Shown: in pieces, positions 3,556 to 35,702 of the stretch
Layout: each line of letters begins with the position of its first letter
Numbering within the stretch: the stretch's first letter is position 1
Source of the DNA: Candidatus Saccharimonadota bacterium
GTDB taxonomy: Bacteria > Patescibacteriota > Saccharimonadia > Saccharimonadales > Saccharimonadaceae
Direction: 5' to 3'
NCBI GenBank assembly: GCA_017431745.1
Contig: JAFRKK010000006.1
Coordinates: 1 to 37,204, forward strand
DNA length: 37,204 nt
Position numbers and translations under genes: made by a program
The notes under the pieces: generated by a model
Databases searched by the model: none
What the model was told of the DNA's origin: nothing
Seen by the model: the letters and a program-made list of their open reading frames with translations, nothing else

Positions 3556-4902
3556 ATGGACGAGCGTTTGAAACAAAAACTCAGTAAACTCCCGGCCCAA
3601 CCGGGGGTTTATTTTCATAAAAACGCTAGGGGGGAAATTATTTATGTAGGCAAAGCTGCGGTTTTGAAAAGCAGAGTACGGCAGTATTTTCAAAAATCCC
3701 AAAAAGACCCGAAAACTGAGGCCTTAGTAAAAGAAATTGCAGATACGGATTGGTTGGTGGTAGATACGGAAATGGACGCACTGTTTCTAGAATCCGAAAT
3801 GATTAAGCGATATAAGCCAAAGTGGAACATTTTGCTGAGGGATGATAAAACAGTATCATTTGTGCGAATTGATATGAAATCCGAAGTACCCTACGTATCG
3901 TTTACACGGACGCCGATGGACGATAAGGCGATATATGTCGGGCCATTTTATGGGAAAAAGGCGGTGGAGCAATCGCTCAGAATACTTCGACGAGTTTTTC
4001 CATATTATGTAAAACCTTACACTGGCAGCAAAACCCTAGATACCGACCTAGGTTTAACGCCGGGAATCGAAATCGGCAAAAGTTCGACGAAGGATTATAA
4101 ACGAAATCTACGTAAATTAATTCGATACTTAGAAGGTGGACGTGAAAAATTGTTGCACGACCTAGAAAGAACTATGAAAAAAGCATCGGCGGCAGGGAAT
4201 TATGAACTAGCGGCTGAAGCAAGAGACCAACTATTTGGCTTGAAGGAGCTAAAAAAGAAAATCGTTTTTTCGGACAAAGAGTTTTTGGATATTTCGTCGG
4301 ACCAAGCTTTGAAGGAACTGCAAAAACTATTAGATTTGCCTAAACCACCACGGCGAATTGAAGGTTATGATATATCGCATCAATCGGGTTCGGATACAGT
4401 CGGGAGCATGGTAGTATTTATTAACGGTGCGTCGGCGCGCGATGAATATCGTAAATTTAAGATTCGGACTTCGAAAAACGATGACCTTAAAAGTATGGTA
4501 GAAGTGATTACACGGCGGCTAAAACATCAGGAATGGGATTATCCGGATTTGATTATTTTAGATGGTGGGAAAACTCAGGTGAATGCTGTGTTGCCGTTGG
4601 TCCAACCGCTGGGGATTCCGGTGATCGGCCGCGATAAATCGGGCAATCATTCGCGTAATGCTAAAGTGTGTTTGGTGATTCCAGATAATCAAATTTCGGG
4701 GTCGCGTCGCTCGCGCCCGTCGCCACGGGGCGAGCGCGCTAATTCTCGCGCTGCCGCGCTCCGAAATACCCCGAAATCAGATTATCTGGAATACCCTAAC
4801 AATTCACACATTGCACGATTAATCGCGCGGATTGACGAGGAGGCTCACCGGTTTGCGATTACTTACCATACTTTACTGAAAAGAAAAAGTATGCTAAAAT
4901 AA
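3556..4902 (+). CDS. uvrC: Excinuclease ABC subunit C, short form with a palindromic insertion
   Basis: Makes the dual incisions of nucleotide excision repair with UvrAB. The GIY-YIG endonuclease domain is at about residues 14-95 (GVYFH...IIYVGKA). A UVR-like helical segment follows near 195-235 (AAGNYELAAEARDQ). The RNase H-like nuclease domain has its landmarks: EGYDISH, LIILDGGKTQ and the closing EEAHRFAITYH. The protein is 448 aa and ends right after that motif, so the C-terminal tandem helix-hairpin-helix DNA-binding domain of ordinary UvrC (about 600 aa) is absent. A low-complexity insert rich in R, S, P and G lies between VIPDNQ and SHIARLI; it is encoded by the palindrome at 4678-4792. 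uvrB further along carries a comparable insertion. The gene's end overlaps a secG promoter. Confidence 0.93.
   Translation: MDERLKQKLSKLPAQPGVYFHKNARGEIIYVGKAAVLKSRVRQYFQKSQKDPKTEALVKEIADTDWLVVDTEMDALFLESEMIKRYKPKWNILLRDDKTVSFVRIDMKSEVPYVSFTRTPMDDKAIYVGPFYGKKAVEQSLRILRRVFPYYVKPYTGSKTLDTDLGLTPGIEIGKSSTKDYKRNLRKLIRYLEGGREKLLHDLERTMKKASAAGNYELAAEARDQLFGLKELKKKIVFSDKEFLDISSDQALKELQKLLDLPKPPRRIEGYDISHQSGSDTVGSMVVFINGASARDEYRKFKIRTSKNDDLKSMVEVITRRLKHQEWDYPDLIILDGGKTQVNAVLPLVQPLGIPVIGRDKSGNHSRNAKVCLVIPDNQISGSRRSRPSPRGERANSRAAALRNTPKSDYLEYPNNSHIARLIARIDEEAHRFAITYHTLLKRKSMLK
4678..4792. repeat. In-frame palindromic insertion in uvrC
   Basis: Arms 4678-4702 and 4768-4792 are inverted copies of one another over 25 bp with two mismatches. 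The interior is GC-rich and contains CCCGT-CGCC-ACGGG with flanking CGCTCG and CGAGCG. It keeps the reading frame and adds about 35 residues between the catalytic motifs of the RNase H-like domain. Four other genes here carry similar elements with different arms. Confidence 0.85.
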
Positions 4903-4922
4903 GATTGCACAGGAGTTATTTT

Positions 4923-5150
4923 ATGCAAATCGGCAATATTCTAGAAATTACGACATTTATTTCAGCGATTTTGACTATTATATTGATTTTATTGCAACAA
5001 CGCGGCGCGTCGCTAGGAGCTGGGTTTGGCAGCTCGGGGGAGCTTTACACTACACGACGTGGCCTAGAAAAATCACTTTTTGTAACAACGATTGTGTTTG
5101 CAGTAATTTTCGTACTATCAATTATAGGGCTACTAATAATTCCATCATAA
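4923..5150 (+). CDS. secG: Preprotein translocase subunit SecG
   Basis: Small accessory subunit of the SecYEG channel that exports unfolded proteins, in the cytoplasmic membrane. From ATG at 4923 it is 75 aa with two transmembrane helices (about residues 5-25 and 50-73) and the connecting SecG signature LLQQRGASLGAGFG followed by LEKS. The 4923 start follows AGGAG (4910-4914); an in-frame TTG at 4905 would place that ribosome-binding site inside the gene and is rejected. An extended -10-like TATGCTAAAAT within the last codons of uvrC probably drives it. The gene ends 1 bp before the next ATG, so it is cotranscribed with the substrate-binding protein. Export is clearly needed for the many secreted proteins nearby. 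Confidence 0.9.
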   Translation: MQIGNILEITTFISAILTIILILLQQRGASLGAGFGSSGELYTTRRGLEKSLFVTTIVFAVIFVLSIIGLLIIPS

Positions 5151-5151
5151 T

Positions 5152-6882
5152 ATGAAAAATTCTATTCAAAAGCGTGGGCAAAGGTTTGTAAGACGGTTCT
5201 CGCGAGCTTCGGTAAAAGCAAGTGAGGAGAGCAAAGAGCATATCAAGGAAAACTTGGTTGAACGAATTTCGCATATTGCGAATATCCGGCTGCTTATTCT
5301 GGAATGGTCACTTCTGATTATGGCTTTGATTATGCTCGCGGTAGCGCAAGCTTTTTGGTTTGGTAATTCGTATGCAGAAAATGTCTTTGTAGATGGCGGA
5401 GCTTACACCGAAGCGACTTTAGGCGAAGTGAAGTCGATGAACCCACTCTTTGCCACGACGAGTAGTGAAAAAACTTTAAGTCGCTTGATGTTCGCAACGA
5501 TTTCCGCAATTGATTATTCGGGTCATGCGGGAGCAGGTTTGGCTGAATCAATTAGAGCGGATGAGAGCGGAAAAATTTGGACGGTAAAATTGCGCGATGG
5601 ATTAAAATGGTCAGACGGAGAACCTATTACGAACGAAGACGTAATTTTTACAGCGGGATTAATTAAAAATCCGGCGGTGAGTTCGATATACGATTCAAGT
5701 TTATCCAACGTAAAAGTGGGAGAAAACGAAAATGGCGAAATTGTGTTCGAGCTACCAGTAAGTTACGCTGATTTTATTACGGCGCTAAATTTCCCAGTAG
5801 TGCCAAAACATATTTTGGGTGAGGCCGACCCAAAAACTTTAATTGAAAATAACTTTTCTAATGCGCCGGTGACGTCAGGAGCGTTTAGTTATAACGCGAC
5901 GCAGGTTTCGGCTGATAATGAAAAAGTTTATTATTTGTCGGCGAATCCAAATTATTATGGTGGACGGATAATGCTAAATAGTTTTGCGGCGCACACTTTT
6001 AACACCAAGGAGGGAATTGTGAATGCGGTAAATGCCGGCTCGGTGAGCGGCACGGCGGAATTGACTGAAGCTGAAGCAAGCAAAGTAAAGACTGGGCAAT
6101 TTTTGGTAAAAAACTCGAAGTTGAATTCTGGAGCGTTTATTTTCTTTAATACAGCACGCGACTCGCTAAGCGCCGTTGAAATGCGATCAACAATTCGGCA
6201 AGGAATCGATATGGGAAAAATTCGCGCAGCGGCGCCAGATGCAACCCCACTGGATTATCCTTTATTAAAATCGCAAATTGAGCTGACAAACTATCCAGCA
6301 ATTCCAGAACAAAACTCCGAAGCGGCAAGAGCGAAAATCCTTGAGCTAGCCGGGGATGTAACTTTACATTTAGATGTTGCTACGGTGAATTCTGGATATC
6401 TACCTGGCGTGGCTGAAGCGATAAAAACCGAGCTTGAAGGGTTAGGGTTTGAAGTTAATTTAACAGTTTACGAGGAGAATCAAGATTTTATCAACAATGT
6501 GGTGTCAAAGCGCAATTATGATGTGTTGGTTTATGAAGTAGAGCTTGGTACGGACCCGGATTTGCTACCTTATTATCACTCTTCACAGGTAAATAACTCT
6601 GGGCTAAACTTGTCGAATTACCGAGATGTGTTTGTGGATGATTTGTTGCTTGGTGCGCGCGATGCGATGAACGATGAAGTACGCGTGAAAAAATACGAGA
6701 TGTTCTTAGAGCGCTGGGTAGCTGGGGTGCCGGCGATTGGATTGTATCAGCCAAATTTGACTTATTATTATAACAAAAACGTCAGGACATTCAATGATGT
6801 GCAACTAGTGACAGCACTAGATAGATTTTCAGATATTGATGAGTGGGCGGTCAATAAAAGCACAAAAAATAAAACGCCATAG
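5152..6882 (+). CDS. Membrane-anchored extracellular solute-binding protein, family 5 (oligopeptide type)
   Basis: 576 aa, of the family-5 substrate-binding proteins that deliver peptides or similar ligands to ABC importers. Residues 1-45 are basic and cytoplasmic, one transmembrane segment lies at about 47-70 (LLILEWSLLIMALIMLAV), and the rest faces outside. Family signs are MNPLFATT near the start of the binding domain, then LAESIRADESGKIWTVKLRDGLKWSDGEPIT and DVIFT, the usual SBP_bac_5 core. There is no lipobox cysteine, so it is held by an uncleaved helix rather than lipid, as is common in Patescibacteria. No permease or ATPase gene is adjacent. It starts 1 bp after secG stops and may rely on translational coupling, because no ribosome-binding site is obvious. 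Confidence 0.87.
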   Translation: MKNSIQKRGQRFVRRFSRASVKASEESKEHIKENLVERISHIANIRLLILEWSLLIMALIMLAVAQAFWFGNSYAENVFVDGGAYTEATLGEVKSMNPLFATTSSEKTLSRLMFATISAIDYSGHAGAGLAESIRADESGKIWTVKLRDGLKWSDGEPITNEDVIFTAGLIKNPAVSSIYDSSLSNVKVGENENGEIVFELPVSYADFITALNFPVVPKHILGEADPKTLIENNFSNAPVTSGAFSYNATQVSADNEKVYYLSANPNYYGGRIMLNSFAAHTFNTKEGIVNAVNAGSVSGTAELTEAEASKVKTGQFLVKNSKLNSGAFIFFNTARDSLSAVEMRSTIRQGIDMGKIRAAAPDATPLDYPLLKSQIELTNYPAIPEQNSEAARAKILELAGDVTLHLDVATVNSGYLPGVAEAIKTELEGLGFEVNLTVYEENQDFINNVVSKRNYDVLVYEVELGTDPDLLPYYHSSQVNNSGLNLSNYRDVFVDDLLLGARDAMNDEVRVKKYEMFLERWVAGVPAIGLYQPNLTYYYNKNVRTFNDVQLVTALDRFSDIDEWAVNKSTKNKTP

Positions 6883-10694: not shown

Positions 10695-10775
10695 GCATAG
10701 GTTGTGGAAAAATACAAGGGTCGGCAGTAGGGAATTCTCAAACCCATTTAATTCTTGGCAATAGACTTGACTGAT

Positions 10776-11024
10776 AAGAACTCCAATCACCTACTTTTCA
10801 AAACTGGACTTGGGCAGTTGATAATCTTTACAATATATCGTCAGGCGCTCGCGTCTTATGCTGACCTACATTTGTTTCTATAATATCTTACTGGCTCTTA
10901 CCCATAATATGTGCGAATGAACTATTTGCCTACTCAGGATGGACGCTCACGCACTGGAATATTGTAAAGATTACAACGGGCCAAATCTATTTAATGTTTT
11001 GAAAAGTAGTGATGTGGAGTTCTT
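10776..11024. repeat. 249-bp long imperfect hairpin element downstream of FISUMP gene 2
   Basis: Outer arms of 29 bp (10776-10804 and 10996-11024) are near-perfect inverted copies. A second stem is 10818-10838 with 10959-10976. A third, 10845-10855 with 10942-10952, has tandem G-A mismatches in the leftward RNA. An apical region of about 86 nt has no clear ORF. The last bases contain the FISUMP stop codon TAA. The noncoding stretch 10586-11022 otherwise holds only the rpsB leader. It could be a MITE-like element, a structured RNA or a 3' cruciform. Confidence 0.65.
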
Positions 11025-12447
11025 AAGATGACTTAAGGCAACGGACGCTAAACCCGCCCCGGCGATAGTAGTTGCCCGCGGAATAGACGTACGTAGAATT
11101 GAAGTCGAGGCCGCGGGCGCCAGTACTTGAGCCAGAAGTAGAAGACCAGTAGTACCCGCGGCCTCCGCCATCGTAGAACGTACTACCGCGGTAGTAGCCA
11201 GCACGCAAGAAACTGAGCGGGGTGCCAGAGAGGTCGTTGAAGATAGTGGCCCCAGTAGGTGTGGTGGTGGAATCGTAGGTTTGAATAGCTGAGCTACCGC
11301 CTAGGAGAATCATGAGTTTCCTAAAGTCTGAAGTATCATTGGTGCCACTCCTAGTGTTGGGTAGGTGCCATCCTTTCGGACAAATGCTAGCTGCAGTATC
11401 GGTATTATCAGCAGTTACGGCAGTACTGCCGTCGCTAGCTTTACCACCAAGCGTAGCTGCTAGCCATGAGTAATAGGAGAAGCAACCTGGAGCTGAACAA
11501 CCAGAATCGCTAGTGGCTGTTCTGCCCGAGTTATAGACGAAGGCCTTAGTATCATCATCAAAGCCGGTAGTAGACGAGGCTGGGAGGACTATAGTGTTAC
11601 CTTCTTTGGTCAGGTTACCGCCGGTAGTGAAACCTTCGATGTAGGTGTCTGTAACGTCTGTATCAGCCGAAGATAACCTTGTCCCGCCAGGTAGATCTAA
11701 GTTCTTCGTCATCCAGCATTGTCCATTTTCTAGTAAGGCTGTAGTGTAGATGGTATTATCTCTACTATCTACCATATCCTTACCACAATCAGCCAGAGTG
11801 GCGTTTTGCATGTAGACAATGGGTGGGTTAGGGTTGGCTACGCCTATGAAGTTAATGACGTTAGTATATTCACCTGCTATTTGGTTAGTAGTAGTTCTAG
11901 CACCTATTTTGAATAGGACTGAACTAGAACCTGAAGTAGTAGAGTTAATGAGTTTGATAGAGCTAGATGAAGTATAGAGTGGTAGGCCGTTATAGCCTGT
12001 GGCTGGAGTACCGGTGATGTCTCCACTTTGCCAGGTGGTACCTGAATCGGTAGAATAGGAATAGCCCCAAGTATTGGTACTATCATCAAAGTTAGACAAA
12101 GAGGCTTTATTGGTTGTAATGCTACTGAACTTATTAGTAGTATCTACTCCATCTTTTCTGAGTTCAGTAGATGTATTAGTACTACTACCTACTGTACTAC
12201 TTAGACTATAGCCTGCTATGCTATTACTATTAGCTGTGACTGTAATACTATTACTATCCTTATAGTCGCCTGGAGTGAGATTAGCGATAGTGAGATCTCC
12301 ACTTACTGTAACTGAAATGCTAGGGTTGAGAGTGAAGGAGATGCCCTGGGAGGATTCGTAGGAGAGAGCGGAAGTGATATGATTAAAGAATAAAAATGGG
12401 GAGAGTAGGGCTCCCAGGATTATAATCTTTTTATCTATTATCTTCAT
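11023..12447 (-). CDS. Secreted FISUMP-domain surface protein 2
   Basis: 474 aa. The signal peptide is at about residues 1-27 (KKIIILGALLSPFLFFNHITSA). Residues 30-205 are Ser/Thr/Asn-rich beta material (ISVTVSGDLTIANLTPGDYKD..., NSITVTANSNSIAGYSLS). The FISUMP domain (TIGR02145-like) spans about 210-474: VDSRDNTIYTTALLENGQCWMTKNLDLP, then SICPKGWHLPNTRSG and the closing YYWSST...GFSVRCL. FISUMP is a C-type-lectin-like fold, so a binding role at the cell surface is likely. GAGTGAGGTAA precedes the start. The leader at 12448-12750 has the three-copy fold. The last 60 codons are visibly more GC-rich and richer in C-ending codons than the rest of the gene. The protein ends at the edge of a long hairpin. 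Confidence 0.85.
   Translation of the reverse strand: MKIIDKKIIILGALLSPFLFFNHITSALSYESSQGISFTLNPSISVTVSGDLTIANLTPGDYKDSNSITVTANSNSIAGYSLSSTVGSSTNTSTELRKDGVDTTNKFSSITTNKASLSNFDDSTNTWGYSYSTDSGTTWQSGDITGTPATGYNGLPLYTSSSSIKLINSTTSGSSSVLFKIGARTTTNQIAGEYTNVINFIGVANPNPPIVYMQNATLADCGKDMVDSRDNTIYTTALLENGQCWMTKNLDLPGGTRLSSADTDVTDTYIEGFTTGGNLTKEGNTIVLPASSTTGFDDDTKAFVYNSGRTATSDSGCSAPGCFSYYSWLAATLGGKASDGSTAVTADNTDTAASICPKGWHLPNTRSGTNDTSDFRKLMILLGGSSAIQTYDSTTTPTGATIFNDLSGTPLSFLRAGYYRGSTFYDGGGRGYYWSSTSGSSTGARGLDFNSTYVYSAGNYYRRGGFSVRCLKSS
11026..11205 (-). other. Variable-region-like 3' end of FISUMP gene 2
   Basis: The segment from RAGYYRG to the end lines up with the FISUMP end of protein 3 at WS.T, the Tyr/Arg/Gly-rich loop and GF.VRC. 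Many codons are NNC (TAC, CGC, GGC, TTC, GAC, CTC, GTC, TCC), the set reachable from AAC by adenine mutagenesis, as in diversity-generating retroelement targets. No template repeat or reverse transcriptase is in the window. Confidence 0.35.
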
Positions 12448-20215: not shown

Positions 20216-22309
20216 ATGGCTAAGTTCAAGTTAGTGTCAAAATACCAGCCCACGGGCGACCAGCCTTCGGCAATTAAAAAATTGACGGAGGGGATTTTGA
20301 ATGGCGAACATGAGCAAACCTTGCTTGGCGTAACTGGCTCGGGTAAAACTTTTACGATGGCTAATATCATCGCGAATGTACAGAAGCCGACTTTGGTGCT
20401 GGCGCATAATAAAACTTTGGCGGCGCAGCTTTATTCCGAATTTCGGGAGTTTTTCCCGAAGAACCAAGTACACTATTTTGTGTCATATTTTGATTACTAT
20501 CAACCGGAGGCGTATATTGCCTCGACCGATACTTATATCGAGAAGGATTCGGCGATTAATGATGAAATTGACCGGTTGCGTCATGCGGCGACGGAAGCAT
20601 TGCTGAGCCGGCGGGATGTGATCGTGGTGGCGTCGGTGTCGTGTATTTACGGCATTGGCTCGCCAGAGCATTACCTTGAGATGTCATTGCCACTAGTGCG
20701 GGAAAAAGATGGCTGGGTGATTAGTAATAAAGATTTTGAGGGGCTTTCGGAGGTCACGACCGAGAATGAGGGCGCGAGCCCCGTGACGACGGGAGCGAGC
20801 GACCCGTCCCCGAAAAACTTTATTACTAATCACCCATCCCAGCCTTCGTTCATTCGGCAGCTAGTGGCGATGCAATATCATCGGAATGATTTGGCGTTCG
20901 AGCGGGGGAATTTTCGGGTGATGGGCGATACGATTGATTTGTACCCGGCGAATGGGGAATATGCGTATAGGTTTGAGTTTGGCTTTGACACGCTAGAAGA
21001 GGTGAAGATCGTGGAGCCTTTGACGTTTGAAGTACGCGAGAAACCAGACCAGTTACATATCTTCCCAAGCACGCATTATGCGACGCCGGAGGATTCTTTG
21101 GAGGGGGCGCTAGTCGCGATTCGGAAAGAATATGAGGAACGGTTGAAGTATTTTGAAAGGCATGAAAAGTTTTTGGAGGCACAGAGGCTGTCGCAACGCA
21201 CGAAATATGACCTCGAGATGTTAAAAGAAACTGGGTTCGTGAAGGGGATTGAGAATTATTCTAGACACCTGGAAGGACGCAAGGCAGGGGAACCGCCGTA
21301 TACACTGCTAGATTTCTTCCCGAAAGATTATCTTTTGATTGTAGATGAGTCGCATATGACTTTGCCGCAGGTGAGGGGAATGTATAATGGTGACCATGCT
21401 AGAAAATTGGCTTTGGTAGATTATGGATTTCGCTTGCCCTCGGCGCTGGATAACCGGCCGCTGACTTATGGTGAATTCCAGAAGCGAATTAATCAGGCGA
21501 TATATGTGTCGGCGACGCCAGGTGAATACGAACTAGAGGTGTCCGATGAGGTAGCTGAGCAAGTAATCCGCCCGACAGGACTACTGGATCCGGAGATTGA
21601 AGTGCGCTCTTCGGACGGACAAATTGATAACTTGATGGAAGAAATTGACCGGCGCATCGCAAAGGGGCAAAGGACGTTGATTACGACCCTGACGAAACGG
21701 ATGGCAGAGGATTTGACGGACCATTTGAAGGAGCGGGGGGTGAAGACGGCGTATATTCATTCAGATATTGATACATTGGAGCGGGGCGATATCTTGAGAG
21801 ATTTGCGCGAGGGAGTATATGACGTGCTAGTGGGGATTAATCTATTGCGGGAAGGATTGGATTTGCCGGAAGTATCGCTGGTGGCGATACTGGATGCGGA
21901 TAAGGAAGGGTTTTTGCGCTCCGAGTCAGCGCTGATTCAAACGATTGGCCGGGCGGCCAGGCACGTTGAAGGTAAAGTAATCATGTATGCAGATTATATT
22001 ACCGAGAGCATGGAAAAAGCCATCTCGGAAACCAACCGGCGGCGCGAGATTCAGAAGGAATATAATGCTAAAAATGGAATTACTCCGCAATCAATCACGA
22101 AAGAGGTCGGAAAGGGGTTACGCGCGATTATTCCGGAGAAGGAAAAAGTTGATAAACTGGATATCAAACGGATCCCGAAGGATGAGTTACCCGGGTTGAT
22201 TAAGTCACTAACTGGCGAAATGCAACTTGCGGCAGCGAATTTGGAGTTTGAAAAAGCGGCAGCACTGCGGGATGAAATTCAGCGAATTAAGGAGTTTGCG
22301 GAGAAATAA
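20216..22309 (+). CDS. uvrB: Excinuclease ABC subunit B, with a palindromic insertion
   Basis: DNA-damage-verifying helicase of nucleotide excision repair that recruits UvrC. 697 aa. Walker A is GVTGSGKT, preceded by [11 protein letters not shown]. The beta-hairpin region has [27 protein letters not shown]-like motif DESHMT, helicase motif SATPGEYE and [31 protein letters not shown] follow. The UVR domain ends the protein ([27 protein letters not shown]). About 40 residues (from VISNKDF to FITNHPSQ) are inserted between SLPLV and [13 protein letters not shown], encoded by the palindrome at 20711-20844. TATAAT at 20203-20208, 7 nt before ATG, suggests a leaderless mRNA. Its last codons recur in a fragment at 22847-22894. 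Confidence 0.96.
20711..20844. repeat. In-frame palindromic insertion in uvrB
   Basis: Arms 20711-20737 and 20813-20844 are inverted copies apart from a few bases. The core (20738-20812) includes CCCGT-GACG-ACGGG and is nearly identical, over about 75 bp, to the reverse complement of the gatB core (35187-35263). The element is thus inserted in opposite orientations in two genes, and both remain open. Confidence 0.88.
22284..22303 (+). repeat. 20-bp direct repeat, copy at the true uvrB 3' end
   Basis: This 20-mer (GAATTAAGGAGTTTGCGGAG) recurs exactly at 22863-22882, 579 bp further on, and CGGGATGA upstream of it recurs at the same distance (22268 and 22847). It flanks the nuclease gene. Confidence 0.8.
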
Positions 22310-22392: not shown

Positions 22393-22782
22393 CTAAACTA
22401 GCTTACGAATGTCAATAACTTCATGACGCTTATTGACGAAAAGTATATTCTTTATTGCTTTTCGCTTTTTAATTTGAGATACGAGGAAACGCTGAATTAT
22501 TTCATCATGAGCACCTTTAAGACGAAGCGAATCGAATATAATATTTGGGCACCTCTTCTTATACAAGGCATCCTTGATTAGCTGCTCCATAGAATTTGTT
22601 TTATGCGATTTTGGTGATTTCATTTCATACATTATGCCATCAAGAAGAATATCTGGCGAACTAGAGCTCCTAGGTAAAAACTCAACATAGTGCCCAACTC
22701 TCGCCAAAATATCTGCTGTACGCTCTTCGTGTGGCCACGGATCCGTATTTGAAGGTTTAACAACTCTGCCTACTTTTTTCAT
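22393..22782 (-). CDS. Stand-alone nuclease resembling the CdiA C-terminal tRNase domain
   Basis: 129 aa. HEERTADILARVGHYVEFLP, then SPDILLDGIMYEMKSPKS, LIKDALYKKRCPNIIFDSLRLKG and ILFVNKRHEVIDI match the general pattern of the CdiA-CT tRNA nuclease domain, a PD-(D/E)xK-like fold, with candidate catalytic D (PDI) and ExK (YEMKSPK). In contact-dependent inhibition this domain is the toxic tip of a large exoprotein; here it stands alone with its own start and no immunity gene next to it. It could be a cargo toxin, a remnant or a host-directed nuclease. It uses a GGGGGTTG-type promoter like the FISUMP leaders and sits between direct repeats of the uvrB tail. It has no signal peptide. Confidence 0.68.
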   Translation of the reverse strand: MKKVGRVVKPSNTDPWPHEERTADILARVGHYVEFLPRSSSSPDILLDGIMYEMKSPKSHKTNSMEQLIKDALYKKRCPNIIFDSLRLKGAHDEIIQRFLVSQIKKRKAIKNILFVNKRHEVIDIRKLV

Positions 22783-22819: not shown

Positions 22820-22846
22820 CCCCCCACATCCTAGATTAAGCCTAGG

Positions 22847-22894
22847 CGGGATGAGGTGGCCAGAATTAAGGAGTTTGCGGAGGGGAAGAAATAG
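22847..22894 (+). pseudogene. Duplicated 3' fragment of uvrB
   Basis: In frame it reads RDEVARIKEFAEGKK then TAG, against [13 protein letters not shown] then TAA at the end of intact uvrB. No start or upstream coding survives. The intact uvrB tail and this fragment bracket the nuclease gene, as when an element integrates in a gene's 3' end and supplies a replacement tail. Confidence 0.7.
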
Positions 22895-22906: not shown

Positions 22907-24349
22907 CTAGGAATTAGCCACGCAACGGACTGCGAATCCGTAGTACTTGCGGTAGTTGTTCGAAGGGTAGACACCGGTAGTATACATGCTCAGAAGGTAT
23001 CCGTGCTGAGCAGAATTCGCAGTACGCGACCAGTAGCTGCCGTCGGAGCCGAGATCGTTGGCTCCACCAGTGTAGTAGAAGCCGCTAAGCAGGAAGCCAG
23101 GAGTGTTTGTGACTTGGCCTACAGTCGGAGTATTTTCCTTCGTGGTAGTTGGGTTTGCTACTTCCATTTGAGCTGCCGATGGGTATTGGTTATAGAGAGC
23201 TTGGAATTGGCCACCACTACCGCTAGTTGGAAGAGTCCAGCCAGTAGGACAGATGCTGTTATTGACGTTCTGACCCTGAGTTGCTATGTAGGTAGTACCG
23301 GTGCCAGCAGTAGCAGTATACCAGTTATAATAGCAGGATTCCCAGTCAGATGCAGTGCCATCACCAGTACAGTAATACTCAGTGCTGTTGTTTTGGTACT
23401 GGACGCCATCAATCGTGTAGGAATGGAATTTACCTGGGGAAGGGAGTTTATTGTTTAATACATAGTTGCTGCCTACGTCAGAATTGGTAGGGGTTAGCGT
23501 AAGAGTGGAGGTGCTACGGCCGAGTTTTAAGTTCTGGAGCATCCAACAGTTGCCGTCTTTTAACTTAGCGACACGGTATTTTTGGTTGTCACGACTATCG
23601 GTTAACTCGTAGACCATACCGGTGGTGAGAGAAGCTGGACATTCACCTACTTCCTGCATATAGGTGGCATTAGAGATATTTTTAGTGGATGGAGCAGCAG
23701 CATTGTTTGGATGAACCATAGTGTACTTTACTTTACCAGTATAGGTACCAGCAGTTTGGCCACTGCTAATATAGACATTGTATTTAACTTGAGCCTGGGC
23801 ACCAGTAGATGAGGAGCTGGTAGTAGATGATTCGTATTTAGCGATTTGGGTGTAGGTTTGTGGTACTACATGATAGTTATTGAAGTTATTCATGATGGTA
23901 GGGTTATTACCTGAGACTGGGTTAATCTTCATAGCCCACCAAGAAGCACTGGTACCACTAGTACCAGTATTGATGTTACCAATACCACCACTTCCTATCA
24001 TTTGAGTATTGGTTGGAGTAGTATAAGCATCGTTACTATAGCCGATAGCATAGAGTGAATAGCCATTAGGATCATTACAAATGGTAGTGAGTTTGCTACC
24101 ATTAATTTCAGCTGAGGTACCTGGGTCTATGGTAGCACTGTAAATACTACTGCCACTAGTATCTGTGCCATTTGGACCACCATAGAGAGTACAGGCAGAA
24201 TTAACCGTGACTGAGACGTTGCTGGTTTCGGTCTTTTGGCTATCGGCCTTGACTGTTGAATTGGTTAATATAGTACCTGTTAATATTGTTAAGAGCAGGG
24301 GCGTGCCCACCGCTAGATAATTAAATAGTTGATGCTTCTGATGCTTCAT
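22907..24349 (-). CDS. Secreted FISUMP-domain surface protein 3
   Basis: 480 aa. The signal peptide is at about residues 1-35 (LFNYLAVGTPLLLTILTGTILTNSTVKA). A Ser/Thr/Asn-rich beta region follows (NVSVTVNSACTLYGG to about 225). The FISUMP domain spans about 228-480: YMQEVGECPASL, YELTDSRDNQKYRVAKLKDGNCWMLQNLKL, NSICPTGWTLPTSG and the final YWSRTANSAQHGYLLSMY...YYGFAVRCV. The general plan and anchor-free C-terminus match protein 2, though the N-terminal domains differ. The start follows GTGAGGTAAC, and the leader at 24350-24580 has the conserved A/B/C fold. The gene ends 13 bp from the uvrB-tail fragment. A cell-surface binding or adhesion role is inferred from the lectin-like fold. Confidence 0.85.
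   Translation of the reverse strand: MKHQKHQLFNYLAVGTPLLLTILTGTILTNSTVKADSQKTETSNVSVTVNSACTLYGGPNGTDTSGSSIYSATIDPGTSAEINGSKLTTICNDPNGYSLYAIGYSNDAYTTPTNTQMIGSGGIGNINTGTSGTSASWWAMKINPVSGNNPTIMNNFNNYHVVPQTYTQIAKYESSTTSSSSTGAQAQVKYNVYISSGQTAGTYTGKVKYTMVHPNNAAAPSTKNISNATYMQEVGECPASLTTGMVYELTDSRDNQKYRVAKLKDGNCWMLQNLKLGRSTSTLTLTPTNSDVGSNYVLNNKLPSPGKFHSYTIDGVQYQNNSTEYYCTGDGTASDWESCYYNWYTATAGTGTTYIATQGQNVNNSICPTGWTLPTSGSGGQFQALYNQYPSAAQMEVANPTTTKENTPTVGQVTNTPGFLLSGFYYTGGANDLGSDGSYWSRTANSAQHGYLLSMYTTGVYPSNNYRKYYGFAVRCVANS
22910..23086 (-). other. Variable-region-like 3' end of FISUMP gene 3
   Basis: From SGFYYTGG to the end, many codons are NNC (TTC, TAC, AAC, CTC, GGC, TCC, GAC, AGC, CGC). Alignment to protein 2 keeps YWS.T and GF.VRC and differs at the loop residues between. 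The two genes share GTCCGTTGC near the end, where a DGR would have its initiation-of-homing sequence. Interpretation only. Confidence 0.35.
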
Positions 24350-34191: not shown

Positions 34192-35702
34192 AATATACAC
34201 CGACGATTGGGATTGAATGTCACGTACAGCTATGCACGAAAACGAAATTGTTTTCTGAAGTAGATAATGATGCGCGTGGCAAAGAGCCGAATTCTTGTGT
34301 ATCGCCAGTGGACTATGCGATGCCGGGGATGTTACCACGATTAAACGGCGAAGCGATTAAGTTCGCAATTCGAGCAGGCCGCGCGATGAATTGCGAAATT
34401 AATGCATATTCGCGGTTTGATAGGAAACATTATTTTTACCCAGATTCGCCGAAGGGATATCAGATTTCGCAGTTTTATCATCCAATTATTGGGGCGGGGT
34501 ATGTGGAACTTCCGTCGAGCACGAAAGTGCGAATTGAACATGCGCACCTTGAGGGTGATGCAGGGAAATTGACACATTTTGACACTTATTCACTTGTGGA
34601 TTTAAACCGTGTCGATACGCCGCTGATTGAAATTGTGTCAATGCCGGATATTCACTCGTCAAAAGATGTACACGATTATTGTAAAGAACTTTGGCGCTTG
34701 ATGTGCTATGCTGGGGTGACTTATGGAGATCTTTATAACGGAAATATGCGGTTTGATGTAAACGTATCGGTGGCGCCGGAAGGGTCATCGGAGTCAGGTA
34801 CGCGCGCGGAAGTGAAGAATTTAAATTCGTTTAGATCAGCTGAAAGAGCAGCGGAATACGAAATTAAGAGGCAGACTAAGCTTCTTGAAAAAGGTGAAAA
34901 AGTTGTTCAGGAAACTAGAGGGTGGAATGATGCTACTGGCGTAACGACTGGACAGAGATCTAAGGAGGAAGCGAAGGACTATCGCTATATGCCGGAGCCG
35001 GATATTCCACCGATTCATCTTTCGTCAGAGTTTATTGATGAAGAGTCGGCAAAGTTGCCGTTGATGCCGGCGGATTATCGCAAGCTGTTTGATGGTGTCA
35101 TTAAATCAGATATACTGGAGGTCTTGCTCGACTATCCGCAACTAATGAACAGTCTTCGAGAACTAAGCACTAGAGAAGATGGCTTTCTCGGGGACGGGTC
35201 GCTCGCGCCCGTCGTCACGGGGCTCGCGCCCTCATCCTCGGTCGTAACCTCCGGAAGCCCCTCAAAAGCATCTTCTCTAGTGCTTTTGATTTCTAATCTG
35301 TTCGCTTCGGTGCTGCTTGCGGAGGAGAAGTCGGCAGAGTATTTGAATGATTTGCCGACAGCAGCTGAACTTAACGAGTTAGCGGAAATGAATATCAAGA
35401 AAGAATTGTCTTCGACTGCGACCAAGGAAGTGTTCCTAAGGCTATTTGATCCACAGATGAAAGGTCGCGGCGCAAAGCAAATTGCGAAGGAGCTAGGGTT
35501 AATTCAGGAAAATGATTTGGGGGCTTTGGAAAAGATAGTAGATGCAGTGCTAGCGAAGCCAGAAACCCAGAAAGCTCAAGCCGATTTTAAGGCAGGTGAG
35601 GAAAAAGTAATTGGTTTTCTGGTAGGACAAGTGATGAAGGAGTCTAAAGGTAAGGCGAACCCTTCAGCCGTACAGGACATTTTGCGAAAGAAATTGGCTT
35701 AG
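34188..35702 (+). CDS. gatB: Aspartyl/glutamyl-tRNA amidotransferase subunit B, with a palindromic insertion
   Basis: Binds and phosphorylates the mischarged tRNA. 504 aa. N-terminal: TPTIGIECHVQLCTKTKLFSE, then NSCVSPVDYAMPGMLPRLN and FDRKHYFYPDSPKGYQISQFYHPI, the GatB/PET112 signature. The tail domain has DLGALEKIVDAVLAKPETQKAQADFKAGEEKVIGFLVGQVMKESKGKANP, the YqeY-like region. An insert of about 35 residues ([20 protein letters not shown]...) lies in the helical middle, between ELSTRED and LVLLISNL, from the palindrome 35165-35285. The last overlap in the operon is ATGA with the HEPN-like gene. No terminator is seen, but a new promoter starts 8 bp downstream. Confidence 0.94.
   Translation: MKYTPTIGIECHVQLCTKTKLFSEVDNDARGKEPNSCVSPVDYAMPGMLPRLNGEAIKFAIRAGRAMNCEINAYSRFDRKHYFYPDSPKGYQISQFYHPIIGAGYVELPSSTKVRIEHAHLEGDAGKLTHFDTYSLVDLNRVDTPLIEIVSMPDIHSSKDVHDYCKELWRLMCYAGVTYGDLYNGNMRFDVNVSVAPEGSSESGTRAEVKNLNSFRSAERAAEYEIKRQTKLLEKGEKVVQETRGWNDATGVTTGQRSKEEAKDYRYMPEPDIPPIHLSSEFIDEESAKLPLMPADYRKLFDGVIKSDILEVLLDYPQLMNSLRELSTREDGFLGDGSLAPVVTGLAPSSSVVTSGSPSKASSLVLLISNLFASVLLAEEKSAEYLNDLPTAAELNELAEMNIKKELSSTATKEVFLRLFDPQMKGRGAKQIAKELGLIQENDLGALEKIVDAVLAKPETQKAQADFKAGEEKVIGFLVGQVMKESKGKANPSAVQDILRKKLA
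35165..35285. repeat. In-frame palindromic insertion in gatB
   Basis: Arms 35165-35186 and 35264-35285 are inverted copies (one base out of register). The core 35187-35263 contains CCCGT-CGTC-ACGGG and is the near-identical reverse complement of the uvrB core. On both strands it is free of stops in the frame used. Confidence 0.88.

Follow-up and report, generated by a model that had tools for sequence, protein, structure and literature searches.

Diversity-generating retroelements (DGRs) of CPR/Patescibacteria form clade 2 of Roux et al. 2021 (PMC8144416), and they are like the system described here in host group and in cellular setting; that survey, by its own statement, could not see remote targets. 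A DGR in which one template serves dispersed targets is that of Treponema denticola (PMC4891356), which is also like the present system in having variable regions (VRs) left from another template type; in T. denticola SP32 a leftover VR of a lost template has been described. That DGR is unlike ours in host, in reverse transcriptase (RT) and in target scaffold.

The DNA analysed here, which we call the window, is the whole of contig C10 (37,204 bp) in a 13-contig, 744-kb draft genome of a Candidatus Saccharimonadota bacterium (97% complete, contamination 0.43%). Saccharibacteria are tiny, parasitic-type bacteria that live on other bacteria. Wherever a relative of this genome's RTs comes from a named genome, that genome is of Candidatus Saccharibacteria, and several are from the ruminant gut. 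The window contains two FISUMP genes, both of which exceed the curated cut-offs of PF09603 and TIGR02145. Our analysis makes it highly probable that the C-terminus of the second gene is a remote target of a DGR on contig C6. The tail of its paralog, the first gene, may have been diversified by a template that is now missing. The features that bear on this reading, in the window and on C6, are the following.

11023..12447, minus strand: paralogous FISUMP gene P0001 (474 aa), an ORF matching PF09603 at 45.9 bits
11026..11205, minus strand: putative variable region VR_A, an NNC-rich variable C-terminus and possible relic
22907..24349, minus strand: FISUMP target gene P0002 (480 aa, N-terminal hydrophobic segment), an ORF matching PF09603 at 46.7 bits and TIGR02145 at 58.1 bits
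22919..23104, minus strand: variable region VR_B (186 bp), matched to the C6 template
22922..22930, minus strand: GTCCGTTGC, candidate homing-initiation end at the 3' edge of template identity
C6:31318-32772: cis target of template TR2
C6:33698-34840: RT, adjoining TR2
C6:~34893-35127, minus strand: template TR2, beside the RT

A variable tail in the window and its template on another contig

The original prediction took the C-terminal ends of both FISUMP genes for DGR variable regions on the strength of their NNC codons. That habit is real and moderate: 30/60 codons are NNC at the C-terminal end of the second gene against 128/420 (30%) elsewhere in it (p=0.003), and 30/60 against 132/414 (32%) in the first gene (Fisher p=0.008), and most of the genome's FISUMP paralogs share it. 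The original prediction saw no RT in the window, and an RVT_1 profile had no matches within it and two in the genome, on contigs C1 and C6; an Rfam search of the window also returned no matches. When the genome was searched, as had been proposed, for a copy beside an RT that differs only at adenines, TR2 was found for 22910-23086 and nothing for 11026-11205. The variable-region claim stands for the second gene; for the first, neither a template, in the assembled genome or in 174 genomes of the genus, nor a partner VR was found.

VR_B comprises the last ~60 codons of gene 22907-24349 and is 91% identical to TR2 by BLASTN. All 16 mismatches in the 186 bp fall among the 52 template adenines and none among the 134 other positions (p=2e-10). 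Between VR_B and cisVR2, third codon positions are 0.93 identical and first and second positions 0.79 and 0.81 (another comparison with the cis target gave 0.96-1.00 for third positions, with first and second varying), whereas the gene bodies show the reverse. Because the C6 template differs at adenines only and adjoins a DGR reverse transcriptase, we conclude that the tail of the second gene is rewritten in trans; the suggestion that a retroelement acts from elsewhere was correct for this gene, with both template and RT on C6. Contig coordinates place VR_B at least ~46 kb from the template, and since the two lie on separate contigs of a draft genome, their residence in the same cell rests on binning together with the adenine-only match.

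The variable tails could in principle have arisen with no retroelement, through positive selection or through gene conversion between FISUMP paralogs, an explanation favoured by the observations that FISUMP families are large with or without this RT family (across 17 genomes of the genus, FISUMP count and presence of this RT were not associated) and that the variable columns are identical in genomes without a detected RT. For the second gene, the adenine-only changes (16/16) and the frozen third codon positions rule out protein selection. The genomes without a detected RT are, moreover, not clean negatives, because VR groups bearing the DGR codon signature occur in them (L171, L172 and L174 in G191; L188 and L189 in G150), with no RT of this family detected; these groups may represent lost DGRs or, alternatively, the work of a different RT. 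We regard an origin by selection or conversion as very improbable.

There is a small chance that the second gene's tail was instead pasted once, by recombination, from the template or the cis target and is no longer rewritten. A single genome of the species was compared, and the residues C-terminal of the VR in gene 22907-24349 differ from those of the cis target, both of which leave room for a one-time event. Against it, the three TR2-derived VRs each depart from TR2 at their own set of adenines, the replacement bases including C, G and T, as expected of independent mutagenic homing events. We favor remote rewriting from C6; the adenine bias of VR_B shows it to be at least recent, and it may be ongoing.

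The edges of template identity suggest where homing may begin and end. Identity begins at ACTCCTGG in both the cis target and gene 22907-24349. In both remote genes it stops immediately after GTCCGTTGC or GTCCGTTGCGTG, GTCCGTTGC(GTG) directly preceding the loss of identity in the trans targets, whereas in the cis target on C6 it extends beyond the stop codon. The reverse complement of GTCCGTTGC is present near both window gene ends (11038-11046 and 22922-22930), as originally reported. Its proposed position as a homing site agrees with the second gene, where it marks the 3' edge of template identity; its being common to both genes partly reflects protein conservation, since it codes for the near-invariant V-R-C motif of the FISUMP family. 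We consider GTCCGTTGC a putative homing end. Hairpins 3' of the window VRs or of TR2 were no stronger than those of shuffled sequences, and a strong hairpin follows cisVR1 on C1 only (z -2.95).

In the mechanism we propose, which draws on DGR biology, the RT would copy the C6 template RNA, inserting random bases wherever it meets an adenine, and the resulting mutated cDNA would replace the last ~186 bp of gene 22907-24349, with its 5' edge at ACTCCTGG and its 3' edge at GTCCGTTGC. This replacement would alter the residues that face the ligand in a C-type-lectin-like surface domain, which, if displayed and able to bind as presumed, probably serves contact with the host cell.

The two cassettes, their accessory protein and the target fold

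The cassettes on C1 and C6 share one order: target gene, accessory gene and RT, followed by a template repeat that lies on the other strand. On C6, TR2 differs from its cis target (C6:31318-32772) by 18 changes at A within a 205-bp stretch, with one non-A change just outside. The third gene rewritten from TR2, C1:59389-59569, carries 21 A-site changes over 153 bp, again with one non-A change just outside. On C1, TR1 differs from its cis target by 19 changes in 214 bp, all among 62 adenines (p=6e-12). Translated, TR1 has many asparagines (AAC codons), as DGR templates usually do. The best match of the RT profile among solved structures was the BPP-1 DGR RT (8ub7, E=5e-27), the next having E=3e-6, and the motifs IGNLSSQ and YVDDF can be read in the RT sequence.

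Counting those of relatives with the genome's own, 20 non-redundant cassettes contain an adenine-biased TR/VR pair, and the template is antisense to the RT in 17 of these. One broad survey (PMC6642488) reports inverted cassettes as a minority among the patterns it describes. A distant relative, L157 (G170:C8), has the canonical VR-TR-RT order on the same strand (VR + 3595-3768, TR + 4402-4575, RT + 4633-5607), unlike the close relatives, which have an antisense template.

The accessory genes lie at L033 4912-5715 and L034 6214-7131, and a homolog is found upstream of the RT at 18 of 28 loci, two of which are duplicates of others. The accessory protein, P0005, belongs to no family recognised in Pfam, NCBIfam, PHROG or PADLOC searches. 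Its predicted structure (pLDDT 88.5) consists of an N-terminal alpha/beta domain and a C-terminal four-helix bundle, and in this model the C-terminal domain matches Avd (4dwl, 8ub7 and 8ub8; Z ~14, TMt ~0.84). In this predicted structure P0005 is an Avd fold to which an extra N-terminal domain is fused. That domain, by the motif FYKMxGxSAxIY, recalls what we take to be MutS domain I; no MutS was among the Pfam hits of A2 members, and no MutS_I was found in the genome.

The original prediction also assigned the targets a C-type-lectin-like fold, for which the domain of the second gene provides support. Foldseek returned no significant matches for the FISUMP domain model of this gene (mean pLDDT 73). 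In a second-look structure comparison the top Z scores were those of Lcl (8.1), CarF (7.8), Bd2740 (7.3), EgtB (6.5) and Mtd (6.0), single values below 8 being weak, and 4EPS was also among the matches. We take Lcl, CarF, Bd2740, EgtB and Mtd all to be C-type-lectin-like folds. PF09603 has been linked to DGR targets, and the fold of its relative DUF1566 has been likened to 4EPS/TvpA (PMC4159848). Given the uniformity of the matches and these published links, the modelled FISUMP domain is likely C-type-lectin-like.

The first gene and the wider FISUMP families

For VR_A, BLASTN against the 97%-complete genome identified no template. A pattern in which each base is either itself or A, searched in this genome and in 174 genomes of the genus, retrieved only the gene itself; the same pattern built from VR_B would by construction retrieve TR2. 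Among the VRs of the genome, none had third bases frozen in common with VR_A. These results stand against the view that 11026-11205 is still diversified, or once was, from a DGR template that has either been lost or fallen into a gap of the assembly. Other observations favor that view. Where VR_A aligns with template AAC codons its third base is C in 11 of 13 cases, against 17 of 44 elsewhere, and its third positions match a trio of VRs from a sister species (0.62-0.67) better than they match those of its close paralogs (0.32-0.41). T. denticola SP32 has VRs left behind by lost templates (PMC4891356), and the assembly is 97% complete. On balance we lean slightly toward a lost or unassembled template.

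The variable columns of VR_A coincide with template AAY codons. We dropped this coincidence as proof of a DGR origin, because the same columns vary in FISUMPs where the genome has no detected RT, which makes the test non-diagnostic. In favour of selection or conversion in this gene, the pair of paralogs closest to it (85% and 79% amino acid identity) diverge from it across the entire FISUMP domain, beyond the tail, which makes domain exchange a rival explanation for 11023-12447. The NNC habit of 11026-11205 is suggestive only as a sign of a DGR, and the segment may have been left behind by a template since lost.

Two further elements were observed in the window. An inverted-repeat element of ~250 bp (10775..11025, strand unassigned) is MITE-like, and one of its arms takes in the stop codon of 11023-12447; a 90% identical copy lies downstream of paralog C1:7773-9188 (L020 1210-1461). 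We treat this element only as context. Separately, a 37-bp stretch (22267-22303) at the end of the plus-strand gene 20216-22309, which is probably uvrB, recurs at 81% identity 579 bp downstream (22846-22882). The repeats flank a stretch with a 129-aa minus-strand ORF (22393-22782), an arrangement that suggests an insertion accompanied by partial duplication.

The genome has ~27 FISUMP genes, 26 from the search (with split matches merged and the template removed) and one on C13. Two groups of VRs in these genes are template-less, with third bases frozen and first and second bases varied: one on C7, C2, C7 and C11 (L005, L007, L008 and L009) and one formed by L029 (C3) and C13:12378 (L133). Because a genome search with the VRs of ten genes yielded only TR1 and TR2 as templates, those of both groups are lost or unassembled. 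The six FISUMP genes of these groups carry codon patterns suggesting template turnover. We tentatively propose, as a possibility we rate somewhat below even, a multi-template network of trans-diversification acting on ~27 lectin-like surface proteins, with two cassettes, at least two templates lost or replaced, and an Avd bearing an undescribed N-terminal domain. If such a network exists, template turnover would be a way of switching whole sets of surface binders.

Comparison with known systems

A lectin-like family rewritten from a shared, remote template provides concrete candidates for the proteins by which Saccharibacteria hold their hosts. Surveys of short contigs overlook remote DGR targets, and a codon habit in a window that has no RT can point to them.

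Our data place this system close to the BPP-1 DGR (bRT, Avd, Mtd), with which it shares the RT family, the four-helix fold of Avd, differences between template and VR at adenines only, and a VR at the 3' end of a C-type-lectin gene. Unlike BPP-1, the Saccharibacteria DGR is chromosomal, its template is antisense to and downstream of the RT, its Avd has an extra N-terminal alpha/beta domain, and it has several targets, some of them remote. Human-microbiome DGR targets with Fib_succ_major or DUF1566 (PMC4159848) are like ours in the PF09603 target domain and unlike them in coming from human-microbiome metagenome contigs, where a remote template is not their setting. There is precedent for remote targets, for DGRs in CPR bacteria and for FISUMP targets, and the present system is a well-supported addition to them. 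What is distinctive of it is the N-terminal domain fused to Avd and a template that is usually antisense.
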